A stretch of DNA of 26,975 bases from a virus: IMG/VR virus record IMGVR_UViG_3300009296_000163, positions 1 to 26,975 of that record. The stretch is one strand, 5' to 3'. Position 1 is the first letter of the stretch. Each line of letters opens with the position of its first letter. Of this stretch, positions 5,307 to 14,075 are shown one piece after another. The notes under the pieces are model-generated. The model worked only from the letters and a program-made list of their open reading frames with translations. It made no database searches and was not told the origin of the DNA. A program made the translations under genes and the position numbers.

Positions 5307-5504
5307 TTAGTCCGCCGTGAGGCGGCTTAAATCCTTGCCTAAAAACGTTTCCTGCTTCCTGACCCGCATAACCTGGCCTTTGCTGAAGTGCAGTTCCACC
5401 AATCCGTAGAACTCGCCTTTCTGCAGGGCGATAATGAATTTCAAAAGCTCATCGTCAGTCTGGCCGGTTCCCTGCGGTTTCGTCATGGTCATATTATGGC
5501 GCAT
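5307..5504 (-). CDS. Small DUF2292/YezD-like protein
   Basis: A 65-aa protein. The start at 5504 (MRHNMTMTKPQ) is chosen because AAGGGGG lies 5 bases upstream; the open frame extends further 5' but into the 38-bp boundary repeat and the methyltransferase gene. Residues 18-50 (ELLKFIIALQKGEFYGLVEL, then HFSKGQVMRVRKQE) resemble the short DUF2292 (YezD) family: a helix followed by a beta hairpin with a basic end. The biochemical role of that family is unknown. It sits between the double methyltransferase and the terminator before the protease gene. Confidence 0.65.
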   Translation of the reverse strand: MRHNMTMTKPQGTGQTDDELLKFIIALQKGEFYGLVELHFSKGQVMRVRKQETFLGKDLSRLTAD

Positions 5505-5515
5505 CAAATCCCCCT

Positions 5516-5553
5516 TGTCCATTAACAGTTCAAACTGATTATTTCCCGTCGGA
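5516..5553. repeat. 38-bp gene-boundary repeat, copy 1
   Basis: 36 of 38 bases are identical to 13699-13736. The first 26 bases are identical and include the palindrome CAGTTCAAACTG. On the minus strand the copy spans the last codons of the methyltransferase gene (Ser-Asp-Gly-Lys-stop), the short gap, and an ATGGACA that can open the next frame. See the finding on boundary repeats. Confidence 0.9.
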
Positions 5554-7947
5554 CGTGGGCTGGATTGGAGCAGCCAGCGTCTTCTCCGAATACAGATCGC
5601 CGGGCTTGATCTCGTAGTTGGAGACCAGCAGCTCATACTTCGTCCGCGAGCCCAGTTGGTGCATGCCGGTCCACAGCGTCTTCACGCGGTAGGTGTTGAA
5701 TTCCTTGAACAGCTTTTCTTTTTCAAGCTCGTAGCTTAAAAGAAACTTCCCCTTGATAGCGCGCAGCGCGGGCAGTAGGCTCTCCTCCTGGAAGAACTTG
5801 GAACCGTGCCGGCCCGCTTCTTTCGGCCAGTGCAGCGGATACGGCGGGTCCAGGTAAAACAAGGTGTCTTTAGAGTCGTATTCTTTCACCGCGTCCTGCC
5901 AGTCCCATGAGTGCAGCAATACGCTCTTGAGGCGTTCCTGTATCTCCGGAAGGCGCTCGGCCAGGTGTATCTTCGCGCCCTCGCCGGAACTGCCGTGCCG
6001 TCTGACGCCTTCCCGCGCGTCCGCGCGGCCCCAGTATGTCGCCTTGTTGAGATATGCGAACCGGTAGAACTTTTCACGCGCTGTTTCCGGCCGCCAATCA
6101 TAGAGCTTCTTGACCAGCGCGCGGCTGATTACCCAGTCCCGCTTCTTAAGCCATTCCCAGTCTGCGGTGGTCATGCTCTTTATAAATCGGTATGAGGCGA
6201 TTATGTCTGAGTTGACGTCGTTTATGACCTCCATGTCTGATCGCTTCTTGTGGAACAGTACCTGCGCACCGCCGCAAAACGCCTCGACATAGTTCTTGTG
6301 CTCAGGGAGGAAGCCGACCAGCTTCTTGCATAAGCGGAGTTTCCCCCCTGGGCTCTTGAACGCGCCCCGGATCTTCTCCACCTCGGACTGATCCTCCAGA
6401 TGCGGCAGCAGTTCCGGTTCTTCCGATTCAAAGCCCTCCGGCGCGATGTCCAGCTCCTTGCCGATGTATAGGTCCACTTTCTGCAGCGGGAAATTGGAGA
6501 CCAGTATCTCGGTCACCCATTCCTGGTTGCCGCCCGGCCCGCGCATCTGGTTGCGCCGCCGAACCTTGTAGACGTTATAGCCCTTGAAAGAATCAGCCTG
6601 CTCCACCGGGTATGACACTATCCATTTCGCTTTCAACGACTTGATGGCGCGCTTGAACTCGGCGTCGTCAAACCCGAAGTCGAACAGGTTGAACTTGCCG
6701 GGATATGGCGGGTCCATGTAGAAGAACGTGTCCTGCCCGTCGTAGTCCTTTAGAATGTCGCGGTAGTCTTTGTTATGAACGGCGGCATTTTTAAGCCGGG
6801 CTTGCGCCCGCTCTATGTTGGCCGGGAAGTCTATCCGGACACCGGCGTTGGCGTGATTGAATGAGCCGCCACGCATTTTGCCGTAGGACGACCGGGTCAG
6901 GTAGAACGATTTGTAAAACCGGTCGCGGTCGGTGGCTGGCTTCAGCTCTTTCAGACGCTCGTGTGTATTCTGGCGGATCACCCAGTCGCGCTTGGCCAGC
7001 GCTGCCCTGTCCTCAGGCGAATGGTCGCGTATAAACTTGTGCATGAACGCTATTTCGGCGTCGCGGTCGTTTAACACTTCCTGCGGGGACGGGTCCTTGG
7101 CGTATAGAACCGCCGCGCCTCCGGCGAACGGCTCGACGTAGGTTTTATGATACGGGATATAAGAGGCTATCTTGTGGGCCAGGAAGCGTTTTCCGCCGTA
7201 GGAACCGAACGCCTGCCGCACGCCTTTCATGTATTCCGTAACGAAATGCCAGACATCCGTTTCCCGGAGCAGACAGGCGGCGCGCGCGGTTTTGAGCGCT
7301 TCCCCGACCGTCATAACGGGCTTTGAGCCCGGCACGCTTGTTATGTCCAGCCCGGCCGCTGACAGTGCGAAATTGCCGTCGTCGCGCCTGCACAGGATAA
7401 GGCTTTCGCACTCCACATCCAGTATATCGCCCGGCTCGGGCCACGGGCCCGCACCGGCGACATGGCCGATTTCCAGCCACAGCTTGCCGTTTAGTGACCG
7501 TATGGGTTCCGGCGCGGCTTTCATGTTCTGGTAGTCCAGACCGAAGTAAGCGTTGCGCGTTTCCGGCAGGTATCCGTCCTCCACGCGCGTTACTATGGCC
7601 CGCATGACGAACGAGCGCGGCTTGTCCGCCGCCGCGAGCGGGTCCTCGGGCGCGTCCGGATCGTCCATTTCCGTGTGCTTGCGTGTCTCCGCGTCCAGTT
7701 CGTCGCTGAGCGTATGGGCGAACCCGCGCAGCGCCATCTCGGCGCATACTTCGGCGTGCAGGTTCAGGATATCCGGTGCCTGCCATTCTCTGCCGCCGGT
7801 CTGGTATACCGGGTGGCCCGCGCGTTTCATGGCCCATGCCCTGTGCAGGATGAAATCCATAGACAGCAGCTCCTGGGCCGCCAGATCGGCCGGAGCCGTG
7901 TTGAATAGCTCGCCGAACTCGGCTAAGTCGGTTTTTAGAACGTTCAT
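5539..7947 (-). CDS. Double DNA adenine methyltransferase (two D12-class domains)
   Basis: An 802-aa protein. The start at 7947 has GGAGG just upstream and an ATGA overlap with the portal stop. Residues 1-245 are a domain I cannot assign firmly; part (about 110-205: KLWLEIGHVAGAGPWPEPGD, then ILDVECESL) recalls an OB fold. Two Dam-like domains follow. Domain 1 (about 247-490) has GSYGGKRFLAHKI, SAM motif VEPFAGGAA at 271-279 and catalytic DPPY at 412-415. Domain 2 (about 528-780) has SPGGKLRLCKKL, VEAFCGGA at 554-561 and DPPY at 700-703. Both keep the key residues, so both may transfer methyl groups to adenine N6. The gene lies within the head cassette between portal and protease, which suggests modification of the virion genome before or during packaging. 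Domain identity is secure; target sites are unknown. Confidence 0.88.
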   Translation of the reverse strand: MNVLKTDLAEFGELFNTAPADLAAQELLSMDFILHRAWAMKRAGHPVYQTGGREWQAPDILNLHAEVCAEMALRGFAHTLSDELDAETRKHTEMDDPDAPEDPLAAADKPRSFVMRAIVTRVEDGYLPETRNAYFGLDYQNMKAAPEPIRSLNGKLWLEIGHVAGAGPWPEPGDILDVECESLILCRRDDGNFALSAAGLDITSVPGSKPVMTVGEALKTARAACLLRETDVWHFVTEYMKGVRQAFGSYGGKRFLAHKIASYIPYHKTYVEPFAGGAAVLYAKDPSPQEVLNDRDAEIAFMHKFIRDHSPEDRAALAKRDWVIRQNTHERLKELKPATDRDRFYKSFYLTRSSYGKMRGGSFNHANAGVRIDFPANIERAQARLKNAAVHNKDYRDILKDYDGQDTFFYMDPPYPGKFNLFDFGFDDAEFKRAIKSLKAKWIVSYPVEQADSFKGYNVYKVRRRNQMRGPGGNQEWVTEILVSNFPLQKVDLYIGKELDIAPEGFESEEPELLPHLEDQSEVEKIRGAFKSPGGKLRLCKKLVGFLPEHKNYVEAFCGGAQVLFHKKRSDMEVINDVNSDIIASYRFIKSMTTADWEWLKKRDWVISRALVKKLYDWRPETAREKFYRFAYLNKATYWGRADAREGVRRHGSSGEGAKIHLAERLPEIQERLKSVLLHSWDWQDAVKEYDSKDTLFYLDPPYPLHWPKEAGRHGSKFFQEESLLPALRAIKGKFLLSYELEKEKLFKEFNTYRVKTLWTGMHQLGSRTKYELLVSNYEIKPGDLYSEKTLAAPIQPTSDGK

Positions 7948-10025
7948 TTTTCCTCCAGTACTGTAATCCACGTGCATCTGCAGTTCGGATGCGCGGGTAA
8001 GACGTCTGACGCCTCGTCGATATCTATGATCTTCCCGAGTTTGCCGCCGGGCGCGGACTCGGCCGCGTCCACGCAGGCCGGGCAAGCGTCCGGAGACAAT
8101 AACCACTGCACGCGCTCCACCGAACCCTGTCGCAGCGCGTCCAGATTACCTTCGTTGTATGCGCGGTTGGCCTCGGTGCGGGCGATTATCTCAGCCGCGT
8201 CGGCCCGGCCGAGCTTGCGGACGCCGCCAGCGCGGATTATGTTGCCGTTCGCGTCCAGAACGGGCTTCACATTTATTAAAGCCACCGTGTCCAACTGGCT
8301 GTCCACCCGCGCCATCAGCTGCGGTATGGTTTCATTGGCCGCTATGCCCTCTATGAGCGCCTGCCGCAGGCTGGCTTGTATTGCCAGGGAGACGTGCCCG
8401 GCCAGGGCGGCGGAGCTGGCTTTAATCTTCTCCTGCAGTGCCCGGCTCAAATCGTCAACGTCCTCTATTCCGGCCCGCCGAGTTGATAATTGCAGGCCCT
8501 TGCGCGCCGCTTCAAGCGAGAACCTCTCCACTATCCTGGCTATCTTGTCGCTGTCCACCTGTTCCAGCAGGACCTCAATATCGTCCAGCTGTTTTGCCGC
8601 CTCCGGGATGACAGCCTGCCGGAACGCCAGGCCGCCGCAAACGCTGAATGAAGTCACGAACGGCAGCTTTACGGCTTTCACTTTCGGCAGGATCGCTTCG
8701 CGGTTCAAATGCGGAAGTTTGGCCGCTACGGCGGACTTTATATCGCGGAATAGCCGCGCCAGAGCGTCAGTGAATCTGTTCTCTATGGCGACCACCTCGC
8801 GGGTGGAGTTCACGATGGTCTCCTGCGGGCTCAGTGATTTTTGTATATCCGGCATGCGCGGCGCGACCAGCCTGCGGACCTCCTCGGGTGTGAATACGCC
8901 GTTCTGCAGGTAGATGCCGAATATCTCGGCCTGGTCCTTCTCGTCTATCGCGCGTTTGTTGAATTGGAACGACCAGTCCGTTATGCCGAAGCCCTGCCGG
9001 ACTATGTGCTTATTGAGCTTCTCGGCCACGCGCATCTGGAACGGCAGAATGGTTTCCTCATAAAAGGTCTGGGTCTGGTGGTCACCGGTGCCCGCGCCGA
9101 TATTGCCGGTCTCGATGATGGATACCTTGCTGGGCGGCACGCCGTAGACTGCCAGTATCTCGTTGCGGGTGAATTCCCGGAGCTGCAGGAACTCCATGTC
9201 TTTCTGGTTAACCCCCACCTGTTTGAACTCTATGTCGCCCTCAAGCACGAGGTCCGCGTGCGCGAGTTCGGGATTCTTGGCTCGGACGTTCAGGTAAGCC
9301 CGGTTGCGTTCCACCTGCTCCGGGGTGGCGTCCTTCATGATGAACGCGCCGCGTATCTTCGCGCCGTTCACGAAAAACGCGCGGTTGTAGACCTGCGCGA
9401 ATTTATCGACCGCGATCGGCAGTATAAGCGAAGCCAGCGGGGAAAGGCCGTACAGGGTAGCCCCCTTGGTTCCCAGTTTGAAGTGGATTACTTCACTGGT
9501 CTCGAATGCGACCTTTCCCTCCCGGCTCCGCGAATACCTTGGCGACTGGACGTAGCCCAGTATCGCGCCGTGCTCGTCCGCCCGGACGCTCATAGTGGTC
9601 GCGTCCAGATTCCAGATCTCGCGCGGCTTGCCGTCCGCGCCGTAAACAACCTCCACGAACGCGTTGCCGAACACGTAGACGTCGCGTGTTATGTCGTCCA
9701 GTATCTCTAGGAGCGTGTCGTTCGGGTTGCAGTTAGAGAAGAAGTCCTGTAAAGTCTCGGCGCTCTTCGGGTCCGCGCCCGGCTTGGCCGGTGTCAGCGT
9801 GTAGCCGCGTGCTGTGACCGCCTTGCAGATGACGCCGACCACCGCGCGCACCCAGGAGGTCTGCTCATACATCCGGTTGAATATTTCGAAGTCGATGTCC
9901 GGCAGTATTCCCTCTTCCATCGAGACGCCGGGCACGTGCGAGATTATCTGCTTCGCGGCTTTTTCAATTTCAGCCCCGATAATATTCCCGAACAGAATTT
10001 TGACCACCGTTTCACGTAATCTCAT
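7944..10025 (-). CDS. Portal protein fused to MuF-like head morphogenesis domain
   Basis: A 693-aa protein. Residues 1 to about 400 are a phage portal: DVYVFGNAFVEVVYGADGKP, VIHFKLGTKGATLYGLSPLA, FTRNEILAVYGVPPSKVSII and QTFYEETILPFQMRVAEKLN. Residues about 560-693 match the Mu F / SPP1 gp7 minor head family, with IARTEANRAYNEGNLDALRQ and the cysteine-rich end CPACVDAAESAPGG ... HPNCRCTW. The portal forms the dodecameric DNA channel; MuF proteins enter the head and help assembly or carry effectors. In many phages these are two genes, here one chain. The start has GAGGA upstream. The stop overlaps the methyltransferase start by ATGA, implying coupled translation. Confidence 0.9.
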   Translation of the reverse strand: MRLRETVVKILFGNIIGAEIEKAAKQIISHVPGVSMEEGILPDIDFEIFNRMYEQTSWVRAVVGVICKAVTARGYTLTPAKPGADPKSAETLQDFFSNCNPNDTLLEILDDITRDVYVFGNAFVEVVYGADGKPREIWNLDATTMSVRADEHGAILGYVQSPRYSRSREGKVAFETSEVIHFKLGTKGATLYGLSPLASLILPIAVDKFAQVYNRAFFVNGAKIRGAFIMKDATPEQVERNRAYLNVRAKNPELAHADLVLEGDIEFKQVGVNQKDMEFLQLREFTRNEILAVYGVPPSKVSIIETGNIGAGTGDHQTQTFYEETILPFQMRVAEKLNKHIVRQGFGITDWSFQFNKRAIDEKDQAEIFGIYLQNGVFTPEEVRRLVAPRMPDIQKSLSPQETIVNSTREVVAIENRFTDALARLFRDIKSAVAAKLPHLNREAILPKVKAVKLPFVTSFSVCGGLAFRQAVIPEAAKQLDDIEVLLEQVDSDKIARIVERFSLEAARKGLQLSTRRAGIEDVDDLSRALQEKIKASSAALAGHVSLAIQASLRQALIEGIAANETIPQLMARVDSQLDTVALINVKPVLDANGNIIRAGGVRKLGRADAAEIIARTEANRAYNEGNLDALRQGSVERVQWLLSPDACPACVDAAESAPGGKLGKIIDIDEASDVLPAHPNCRCTWITVLEEK

Positions 10026-10047
10026 TTTGTCCTCGTTCCGTTATTTC

Positions 10048-10053
10048 TATAAT
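10048..10053 (+). promoter_or_regulatory. Consensus -10 box just before the TrmO-like gene
   Basis: A perfect TATAAT ends 9 bases before the ATG at 10063. A transcript would begin about 2-3 bases before the start codon, so the mRNA would be nearly leaderless; no Shine-Dalgarno is visible. The -35 region is poor (TTTTGT at 17-bp spacing). Confidence 0.5.
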
Positions 10054-10062
10054 GTCTTTGTC

Positions 10063-10497
10063 ATGCCCGCCCGCAATTTACAGGCCCGCGCTATAGGCAG
10101 AGTCCGTGGGGACTCTGTTGTAATCCACAAACGCTATGTCAGTGCGCTGGACGGGATAGAGGGCTTTTCCCACATAATCGTCCTTTTCTGGCTTGATAAA
10201 TCCCGCAGCAAGCCGGCCATGAAAATCCACCCCAAGGGCCGCGCGGATATACCGCTCATTGGGACTTTCGCCACGCGTACGCCGCACAGGTTCAATCCCA
10301 TCGGCATGACGGTGGTCCGGCTCATCCGGCGCAACGGTTCCGAGCTTAAAGTCAAAGGGCTTGACGCCTGGCCGGGAACGCCGGTCCTGGACATCAAGCC
10401 GTATACCAGGCGCGAGTCCGTTCGGAAGTTCAATATTCCCGGTTGGGTCCGCAAGCTCGACAGCCTTGAAACCGATCCCTTGCGCAGGTACTCCTAA
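10063..10497 (+). CDS. trmO: TrmO/TsaA-like tRNA methyltransferase, antisense to phage operon
   Basis: A 144-aa protein of the TsaA/VirR/UPF0066 family. E. coli TrmO uses SAM to methylate t6A37 in threonine tRNAs. Family motifs in order are GIEGFSHIIVLFWLDKS (residues 31-47), FATRTPHRFNPIGMTVVRL (about 69-87) and GLDAWPGTPVLDIKPY (about 99-114). It corresponds to the N-terminal catalytic barrel, without the extra C-terminal domain of the longer E. coli protein. It lies on the plus strand between portal and Mom-like genes, ends 14 bases from the convergent Mom-like stop, and has its own -10 box. This looks like a cargo gene (moron) expressed in the prophage. The antisense frame 10078-10515 is a shadow. 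Confidence 0.87.
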   Translation: MPARNLQARAIGRVRGDSVVIHKRYVSALDGIEGFSHIIVLFWLDKSRSKPAMKIHPKGRADIPLIGTFATRTPHRFNPIGMTVVRLIRRNGSELKVKGLDAWPGTPVLDIKPYTRRESVRKFNIPGWVRKLDSLETDPLRRYS

Positions 10498-10511: not shown

Positions 10512-11255
10512 TCATAAAATTCCCCCCGGAAAAAGAAAAGCGGGGTTTCGGAACCGCCCCGAACCCTTGAGATTGGGAATCTCACGGCTCTCTCTTGAGC
10601 CCTCCCCCGCGTCTATCCACCATCTGAGGTCGCCGTTCTTGGGATATGCCGTCCGCCAGTTGAACGACGATTCCCTGAGCAGCGCCTTCCTGAGCTTGTG
10701 TGAGCACAGGAATTTGCAGTACCTGAACTGGTAGCCAGATATCTTCATGAGCCCCATCTTCCGCGTGAATTTATTCTCCCGGGTGCCGTACCGGGTTATC
10801 AGCAGCCTGGGATGCACCACCTCGCCTTCCGCCGTCCGGTAGAACTGGCTCTTGATGAATCCTCCATACAGCCAGCTCGCAGACTGGTACACATAACCCG
10901 GCTTGCCCCTGAGGCCGTCCGCCCAGCTGAACAGAACTTTAACGCCCGGGAAGTCCTCCTGTATCCACTCCGCGCACATTTTAAGGAACCGGCTTTCGGT
11001 ATTGCGCGGCATCTCGTCCAACACGCAGAACCTGTTCAGCTCCAGGTAGTCGTTCACGCCGAGCGACGGGAACAGCCGGCGTATCGTATGCATCGGCCTT
11101 GTGCCGAATCCCCATAGCGCCACCCCAACCAGCTTGTCGCTATTAAACAGGCCGTATGTCGCCTTCGTGATAGGCGGGCAGATGACGGCGTAATGATGGT
11201 CCGCCACGAACTGCCTGCCTGTCGCGTTATCTATCGGCCTGACGCTTAAATCCAT
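10512..11255 (-). CDS. Mom-like DNA modification protein
   Basis: A 247-aa protein starting MDLSVRPIDNATG. The start at 11255 is supported by AGGAG 7 bases upstream. Residues about 30-135 carry the pattern of the phage Mom family, a GNAT-fold group: ITKATYGLFNSDKLVGVALW, YLELNRFCVLDEMPRNTESR and FSWADGLRGKPGYVYQSASW. Mu Mom converts adenine to N6-carbamoylmethyl-adenine and so protects phage DNA from restriction. The C-terminal half (LRKALLRESSFNWRTAYPKN) is basic and could bind DNA. In the sequence as given the frame runs on from the terminase because of the 77-bp duplication, but I infer it is normally a separate gene. Family assignment is by motif likeness. Confidence 0.78.
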   Translation of the reverse strand: MDLSVRPIDNATGRQFVADHHYAVICPPITKATYGLFNSDKLVGVALWGFGTRPMHTIRRLFPSLGVNDYLELNRFCVLDEMPRNTESRFLKMCAEWIQEDFPGVKVLFSWADGLRGKPGYVYQSASWLYGGFIKSQFYRTAEGEVVHPRLLITRYGTRENKFTRKMGLMKISGYQFRYCKFLCSHKLRKALLRESSFNWRTAYPKNGDLRWWIDAGEGSRESREIPNLKGSGRFRNPAFLFPGGIL

Positions 11256-12698
11256 ACCATCGCTCCTATTCATCCAAATCGTCCGAGAACGATATCCTCG
11301 GTTCCATGCGCTGCGCCTGCACGCCCTGCAGCGCCAGCCAGAGCGCGTCCAGCATATCGTCCGAGCTGTGCGGGAAGTGTCCATGCGCTGCGCCTGCACG
11401 CCCTGCAGCGCCAGCCAGAGCGCGTCCAGCATATCGTCCGAGCTGTGCGGGAAGTGCAGCAGCTCTTCCTCCATCTCCGGCATGGTCTCGCGCGGCAGGG
11501 TAATGACGCCGTTTTCGAACAGCGGGGCGAGGCCGCGCAGGCGGGCGTGCTTGTCGCCCTGCGTCATGATGGCCTTTATCGGCAGCATCTTGGTCTCAGG
11601 GTCGGTGCGCAGCGACTCGATGAACGCGCTCTGGTAACCGTTCGACTCTATGCTTATAAGCCTAGGATGCCTGTGCCGGTTCATCCGTTTGACAGTCTTC
11701 AGCTGCTCATTGAACGGGATGCGTCCGCGATACGCCTCTATGATGAAAGCATCCCCGGCCTTGTTGATGCCGATTACGCAGTATGCGAACCGGGAATTGG
11801 ACTCGCGCCGGCCGATAGCGAGGTCAACTCCCGCGAACACGGTCAGGTCGTCCGGCAGCTTGTCATACCGGCCGGATTCCAGCCACGCCAGCTTGAAATC
11901 CGCGCCTTCCTGGCCGGACGGGTCGTTCAGGTACAGGCAGTTATAAGAGGCCGCGCCCAGCTGGGCACGCTGAAGGGCCAGTTTCTCCGCGTTGAATTTC
12001 TCCGGGAACAGGATATGCTTTTTCCCCGCCTCGTCATTCCATTCGGCGGCCAGATTGATGACCTTCCAGTTGCCGTAGCCGGGGTCGTTTTTCAGAAAGC
12101 CCGCGATATCGTCCGTATGCCAGCGGGTCATAACAACCACTATCTGCCCGTCATTATCGAGCCTGGGCAGCAGGTCGCGCTGGAACCAGCGGATAACTTT
12201 CTGCCGCTGGTGCGGCGTCATGGTGTTTCGGTTTGAGCACGGGTCGTCTATGACTATAAGGTTCGGATGCTGGCTGACCACCGTGCCCAGGACCGACGCG
12301 ACCGCGATAGACGGCTCCTTGCGGATCTCCGTGCGCGGTATCTGGACGCGTTCCTCCGTCCAGGTGTCAGCCGTCAGGTCCCAATGGCCGTAGCGGTCGC
12401 GAAACCGCTCGTTCTGCGTCAGGTGGCCTTTGATCTCCCGCATGAAGCCCTTGGCGTTGTCCAATATCTCGTTCACCAGCAGAATCCGCATGTTGTGGTC
12501 TTCGGCCAGCCGGAATAGCGGGTAGGCTATTGTGCAGGCCGTGGTCTTAAGATGCCCCACCGGCGCGAGCAGCAGGATAAACTGCTCCCGCAGCAGGGTG
12601 TCGAACCAGGAAAGGTGCAGCTCGGTCAACTGGCTGTAGCCCAGGACGTCCTTGGCGAAGAAAAACAGCTCTTCCAGCCGCTGCGCGTGGGGCTTCAT
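10512..12698 (-). CDS. terL: Terminase large subunit; frame runs through a duplication into Mom-like gene
   Basis: The frame as given encodes 728 aa; the terminase part is residues 1-439. It is the packaging motor and nuclease. The ATPase has Walker A APVGHLKTT (45-53), Walker B LIVIDDP (147-153) and coupling motif TRWH (191-194). The nuclease has VDLAIG (D292), ISIESNG (E351) and SSDDMLDALW (D421-D425). A 77-bp tandem repeat then shifts the frame: residues 440-480 are out-of-frame and Arg/Trp-rich, and reading continues into the Mom-like protein. With one copy removed the terminase would end EPRISFSDDLDE-stop at 11266, giving a normal 451 aa. The start at 12698 has AGGA upstream and overlaps the preceding small frame by ATGA. 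Confidence 0.9.
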   Translation of the reverse strand: MKPHAQRLEELFFFAKDVLGYSQLTELHLSWFDTLLREQFILLLAPVGHLKTTACTIAYPLFRLAEDHNMRILLVNEILDNAKGFMREIKGHLTQNERFRDRYGHWDLTADTWTEERVQIPRTEIRKEPSIAVASVLGTVVSQHPNLIVIDDPCSNRNTMTPHQRQKVIRWFQRDLLPRLDNDGQIVVVMTRWHTDDIAGFLKNDPGYGNWKVINLAAEWNDEAGKKHILFPEKFNAEKLALQRAQLGAASYNCLYLNDPSGQEGADFKLAWLESGRYDKLPDDLTVFAGVDLAIGRRESNSRFAYCVIGINKAGDAFIIEAYRGRIPFNEQLKTVKRMNRHRHPRLISIESNGYQSAFIESLRTDPETKMLPIKAIMTQGDKHARLRGLAPLFENGVITLPRETMPEMEEELLHFPHSSDDMLDALWLALQGVQAQRMDTSRTARTICWTRSGWRCRACRRSAWNRGYRSRTIWMNRSDGMDLSVRPIDNATGRQFVADHHYAVICPPITKATYGLFNSDKLVGVALWGFGTRPMHTIRRLFPSLGVNDYLELNRFCVLDEMPRNTESRFLKMCAEWIQEDFPGVKVLFSWADGLRGKPGYVYQSASWLYGGFIKSQFYRTAEGEVVHPRLLITRYGTRENKFTRKMGLMKISGYQFRYCKFLCSHKLRKALLRESSFNWRTAYPKNGDLRWWIDAGEGSRESREIPNLKGSGRFRNPAFLFPGGIL
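11303..11456. repeat. Perfect 77-bp tandem duplication in terminase C-terminus
   Basis: Bases 11303-11379 and 11380-11456 are identical at all 77 positions, and identity stops exactly at both ends. The length is not a multiple of three, so it frameshifts the terminase. The copy read second (11303-11379) is translated out of frame. Either a recent slippage or recombination event or an unresolved assembly overlap explains it. Confidence 0.97.
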
Positions 12699-13672: not shown

Positions 13673-13698
13673 AATATTCTGGCCTTCAAAAACGCCGC

Positions 13699-13736
13699 TG
13701 TCCATTAACAGTTCAAACTGATTACTTCTCGTCGGA
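13699..13736. repeat. 38-bp gene-boundary repeat, copy 2
   Basis: Matches 5516-5553 at 36 of 38 positions. On the minus strand it covers the last codons of the nuclease gene (Ser-Asp-Glu-Lys-stop), the palindrome CAGTTTGAACTG, and the ATGGACA that can open the next frame. The two flanking gene pairs are unrelated. Confidence 0.9.
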
Positions 13737-14075
13737 TTTCGTGTCGATTACACAGCTCGCGCCGTCCGCTTTGTGAATCCGGTAGACTCCGGCTCTTAAA
13801 TGTTCCCAGACCTCTGCCTGCGGCCAGACCGCGAATGTCTTCCTGCGGCGCACCGCTACCGCGCCGGAGGTCACCTGGATAAACCGCACTTCACCGGGCT
13901 GCCGTATGGCGACGATATCGAACGCGCCGAACAGATCCCGCGCGCAGAATACTACGCCTCGGCCCGGCAGCCAGCCGGGTTTGCCGAACGTGCGCTCCAC
14001 CAGATAGCCCTGGCTTTTGAGGTAATCCGCGACCTTCTTTTCGTGAACATTTCCCTTGGCCCTGTTATTCATCAT
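13722..14075 (-). CDS. PD-(D/E)XK-like nuclease, Hjc-type
   Basis: A 117-aa protein started at 14075 (MMNNRAKGNVHEKKVADYL), preceded by GGGAGGA; the open frame extends further 5' through a hairpin region. It resembles small resolvase-like nucleases: GNVHEKKVADYLKSQGY (helix 1 with Glu12), DLFGAFDIVAIR (Asp53) and VRFIQVTSG as the third strand. The usual E-x-K is Q-V-T here, a variation seen in some members of the fold. It could cut Holliday junctions or branched DNA for packaging or recombination. Context (between replication protein and terminase) agrees. Fold assignment is likely; activity is less sure because of the changed motif. Confidence 0.68.
   Translation of the reverse strand: MMNNRAKGNVHEKKVADYLKSQGYLVERTFGKPGWLPGRGVVFCARDLFGAFDIVAIRQPGEVRFIQVTSGAVAVRRRKTFAVWPQAEVWEHLRAGVYRIHKADGASCVIDTKSDEK

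Follow-up and report, generated by a model that had tools for sequence, protein, structure and literature searches.

In metagenome contigs, the lengths of terminal repeats peak at 55, 77 and 99 bp, which has been attributed to the k-mer lengths of assemblers (CheckV; PMC8116208, Extended Data Fig. 3). Chen et al. 2020 (PMC7111523) likewise described perfect k-length overlaps between contigs, together with the artificial concatenation of identical sequence, and gave the overlap between contigs as n for IDBA-UD and n-1 for metaSPAdes. The repeat studied here lies in IMG/VR record IMGVR_UViG_3300009296_000163, of which we analysed a stretch of 26,975 nucleotides (henceforth the window). It resembles these earlier cases in being perfect and in having the length of a common de Bruijn k (77), but it is internal and arranged head to tail, whereas the repeats of CheckV and Chen et al. 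sit at contig ends. Literature searches returned no paper that names an exact internal duplication as a SPAdes artefact.

The repeat joins a large terminase gene (terL) to a mom-like gene. The closest described relative of the latter product is the methylcarbamoylase Mom of phage Mu (PDB 8bv8), which belongs to the same family (PF25680) and is matched at E=5.7e-18 by the Mom of the window's close relative introduced below. The two differ in that identity to the Mu protein is only ~30% and in that the present mom sits in a packaging operon.

The 77-base unit and the joined reading frame

We found a single open reading frame on the minus strand (10512-12698; 728 aa), consisting of terminase residues 1-439, 42 out-of-frame residues and Mom from residue 482. 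Its parts, and the repeat units within it, are as follows:

11382..12698, minus strand: residues 1-439 of the large terminase subunit, with the ATPase and the RNase H-like nuclease both intact (PF17289 Terminase_6C, 27.8 bits, cut-off 22.6; phrog_38, E=6e-85)
11380..11456, minus strand: copy of the 77-bp unit within the terminase frame, containing the conserved DDxLDALWLA stretch (identical to 11303-11379)
11303..11379, minus strand: mom-proximal copy of the 77-bp unit, transcribed second (100% identical to 11380-11456; single copy in the close relative, at 34780-34856)
11256..11381, minus strand: the 42 out-of-frame residues (440-481) linking both frames, unlike any terminase tail in relatives
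11304-11266, minus strand: displaced terminase tail EPRISFSDDLDE with its TAG stop, in a frame other than that of the upstream part (tblastn match)
10512..11255, minus strand: Mom-like DNA modification gene, 247 aa, AGGAG at 11263-11267 (PF25680 Mom, 139.4 bits, cut-off 27.1; phrog_1384)

Both assignments are supported by family membership: the terminase part carries the ATPase and the RNase H-like nuclease domain, with PF17289 above its cut-off and a phrog_38 match, and the Mom part exceeds the PF25680 cut-off. The conserved DDxLDALW motif is retained in the terminase residues upstream of the junction, and the AGGAG (11267-11263) lies 7 bases ahead of the Mom ATG at 11255.

The sequence-only reading had claimed a perfect 77-bp tandem duplication at 11303-11456 that shifts the terminase frame at residue 440 and so produces the 728-aa frame, and both claims hold: positions 11303-11379 and 11380-11456 are identical at 77/77 bases and abut in exactly 2.00 copies, and terminase sequence stops after residue 439. 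Such an exact match cannot have arisen by chance. The periodicity ends at the flanks (T at 11302 vs G as the unit's last base; C at 11457 vs T as its first base), and there is thus no microhomology at the duplication. The unit has a GC content of 69%, and its foldback, considered as a candidate cause of slippage, is no more stable than that of shuffled sequences (z = 0.23). An exact search of viral contigs with a 21-base piece of the unit returned no further record. Elsewhere in the window we noted a dispersed direct repeat (5491-5566 and 13674-13749; 76 bases, 76% identical, with the exact shared core TGTCCATTAACAGTTCAAACTGATTA), each copy of which overlaps the end or the start of a small ORF; it is possibly a conserved regulatory or protein-coding motif.

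Relatives with the terL-mom pair

A search with the 728-aa frame identified a close relative, IMGVR_UViG_3300014208_001444 (loci L002, L007 and G001; hereafter G001), which is collinear with the window across most of the prophage, with DNA identities of 90.8% (mom side) and 92.2% (terminase side). In G001 the 77-base stretch occurs once, at 34780-34856, where the two BLAST alignments overlap by precisely 77 bases. The G001 terminase has 451 aa, ends in EPRISFSDDLDE and is followed by mom as a separate 247-aa gene. This is exactly the one-copy state (a 451-aa terminase and a separate Mom gene) that had been predicted from the window. At the protein level, the window's terminase residues 1-439 are ~98% identical to the G001 terminase, the Mom proteins are 94% identical, and by tblastn residues 416-451 of the G001 terminase match window positions 11376-11269 at 100%.

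A Mom query brought in further loci (L008, L009, L010 and L011, the last of which shows no difference from L012 or from the Elusimicrobia MAG locus L021 where they overlap). In all four the terminase has its own stop, either shortly before or shortly past the start of mom. The phages carrying the pair (IMGVR_UViG_3300014208_001444, 3300025309_000439, 3300014208_001436, 3300025154_002688 and 2711768513_000001, and MAG RIFOXYA12_FULL_51_18) share with the window the position of mom directly behind terL and before the portal gene, and are 49-98% (terminase) and 81-94% (Mom) identical to it. Unlike the window, they have a single 77-bp stretch and two separate genes. Altogether, 5/5 distinct phages with the pair (G001 and four other Elusimicrobiota-type phages, these four in six records) were single-copy with separate genes, and neither a fused terminase-Mom frame nor a tandem duplication was found among them. 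The absence of the same 728-aa frame from these homologues leaves standing both explanations put forward in the sequence-only reading, a damaged prophage terminase and a k-mer-length overlap, which both presuppose the one-copy ancestor seen in G001 and the four other phages. Given that the best cellular matches of the terminase are Elusimicrobia MAGs, similarity searches suggest an Elusimicrobia host.

The terL-portal junction is a cargo site in these Elusimicrobiota-type phages: mom is present there in L007-L012 and L021, nothing in L104, L105 and L022, and mom together with a TrmO gene in the window. Judging from this gene order, mom is optional cargo between terL and portal, and the terL-mom pair an ordinary cargo arrangement. 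The TrmO N-terminal domain gene (10024-10497, plus strand; PF01980, 98.6 bits, cut-off 26.8) lies antisense between mom and portal. It is missing in the other relatives and in G001, where only ~14 bases separate mom and portal, so that it represents a ~500-bp cargo insertion, made at the junction where mom was gained as well. Opposite the TrmO gene, the minus-strand ORF at 10078-10515 matches no family and is probably spurious. The window also encodes, at 5539-8106 (minus strand), two D12-class N6-adenine methyltransferase domains within a single frame of 855 aa, which together with Mom gives the phage both Dam-like and Mom-like DNA modification.

Origin of the second copy

The second copy of the 77-base unit is probably an artefact of assembly, i.e., an unmerged de Bruijn overlap. 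Two graph paths sharing one 77-base k-mer would have been concatenated without trimming the shared k bases, where we infer both the joining step and the assembler's k. That 77 is a common de Bruijn k, as had been proposed, agrees with the k-mer-related peak that CheckV reports at 77 bp (PMC8116208); since metaSPAdes overlaps are n-1 according to Chen et al. (PMC7111523), the match between 77 and k depends on the CheckV statement. The form of the repeat favours an artefact, as a unit of exactly 77 bases in 2.00 copies, with zero overrun, no microhomology and full identity is what an untrimmed overlap looks like, and so does its single-copy state in G001 and in the four other distinct phages that carry the pair. 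The terminase gene, otherwise under strong purifying selection, differs from that of G001 by ~2% in amino acids vs 8% in DNA, and an out-of-frame insertion that breaks such a gene likewise favours an artefact. The remaining window ORFs with a G001 counterpart align over their length, with no comparable interruption. The unit itself has 2 mismatches to G001 and falls within the 6.5% best-conserved 77-base stretches of terL-mom; co-occurring strains could share a k-mer at so conserved a place, making the graph branch there. Further support comes from sample 3300025111, where assembly broke a related phage inside this very gene. The two resulting contigs have a stretch of exactly 126 bases in common near their ends, and one of them carries six further, non-matching bases beyond it. 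These two IMG/VR records (IMGVR_UViG_3300025111_000096, the end of L106, and _000095, the start of L012) represent one phage split within terL and should probably be merged into one.

A point against an artefact is that identity to G001 in the 300 bp on either side (89% vs 92%) showed no haplotype change of the kind that a strain-mixing join might leave. No neighbouring contig sharing the window's first 31 bases, sought as a means to infer k, was found, nor one with a 77-base end overlap. We also considered whether the repeat could be the joined ends of a circular contig, which is unsupported, as the record runs on linearly into host-type genes at its right.

What chiefly competes with an artefact is a real 77-bp tandem duplication that arose very recently in the lineage of this prophage; we regard this as unlikely. 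The contig is a provirus (a serine recombinase, and a chromosomal Memo/AMMECR1 gene to the right) and proviruses decay, and the 69% GC of the unit is a further point for a real event; yet no other phage gene was seen damaged, the length coincides with an assembler k, the copies show neither microhomology nor differences, and the foldback of the unit is not unusual. In 3.49 Mb of other loci we found only two exact tandem duplications with units of 30-600 bp, one of 60 bp with a 3 bp overrun and one of 35 bp in nearly three copies. Real ones thus occur at ~0.6 per Mb in comparable loci, a point for a real event; yet both of these look biological and neither is an exact two-copy duplication comparable to the present one, which favours an artefact here. 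The same 3.49 Mb held no second internal duplication of k length, meaning that such artefacts are themselves rare in these contigs, which counts against an artefact; the case for one therefore relies on the exact length and form of the repeat and not on a counted rate. Between a damaged terminase and an assembly overlap, this indirect evidence favours the artefact.

By contrast, we regard as extremely improbable a genuine, selected terminase-Mom fusion that couples packaging to modification, with DNA modified as it is packaged. The 728-aa frame is uninterrupted and both domains exceed their Pfam cut-offs, but the fusion was found in no relative, mom is absent from some close phages in which terL is followed directly by portal (L104, L105 and L022) and is thus cargo, and the 42 joining residues are no more than terL read in its alternative frame. 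The joining of the frames is also readily obtained. Every one of the single-copy phages has 75-267 nt of open mom frame inside terL, ahead of the mom start, as is expected for overlapping or closely coupled genes. The starts of terL and mom are 1366 nt apart in G001, which puts mom in the +1 frame with respect to terL; one long frame therefore comes for free with an insertion late in terL whose length is 2 mod 3, as 77 is. The fusion thus requires no special explanation, and no new biology is needed to account for it.

Consequences for the prophage and for annotation

If the duplication were real, it would have left the ATPase and nuclease untouched, as well as the conserved DDxLDALW stretch; the terminase would lose no more than its last 12 residues, in place of which out-of-frame sequence leads into Mom. 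In relatives this tail retains the pattern P-x-I-x-[YF]. Contacts with the portal are common among terminase tails, so with the tail lost packaging would probably suffer, and the prophage would probably be impaired in this step. The Mom sequence would be intact and, with its own AGGAG and ATG kept, Mom may still be made.

If the second copy is instead an assembly artefact, as we favour, the real phage would most likely be in the one-copy state, with an ordinary terminase of 451 aa and, behind it, a separate Mom-like gene (247 aa) that is probably coupled to it in translation. Annotating the record unchanged would create a spurious terminase-Mom protein of two domains along with a truncated terminase, and such entries could find their way into family databases and distort the calling of defective prophages. 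The combination of an exact tandem unit of k length, zero overrun and a single copy in relatives offers a simple filter for such errors.
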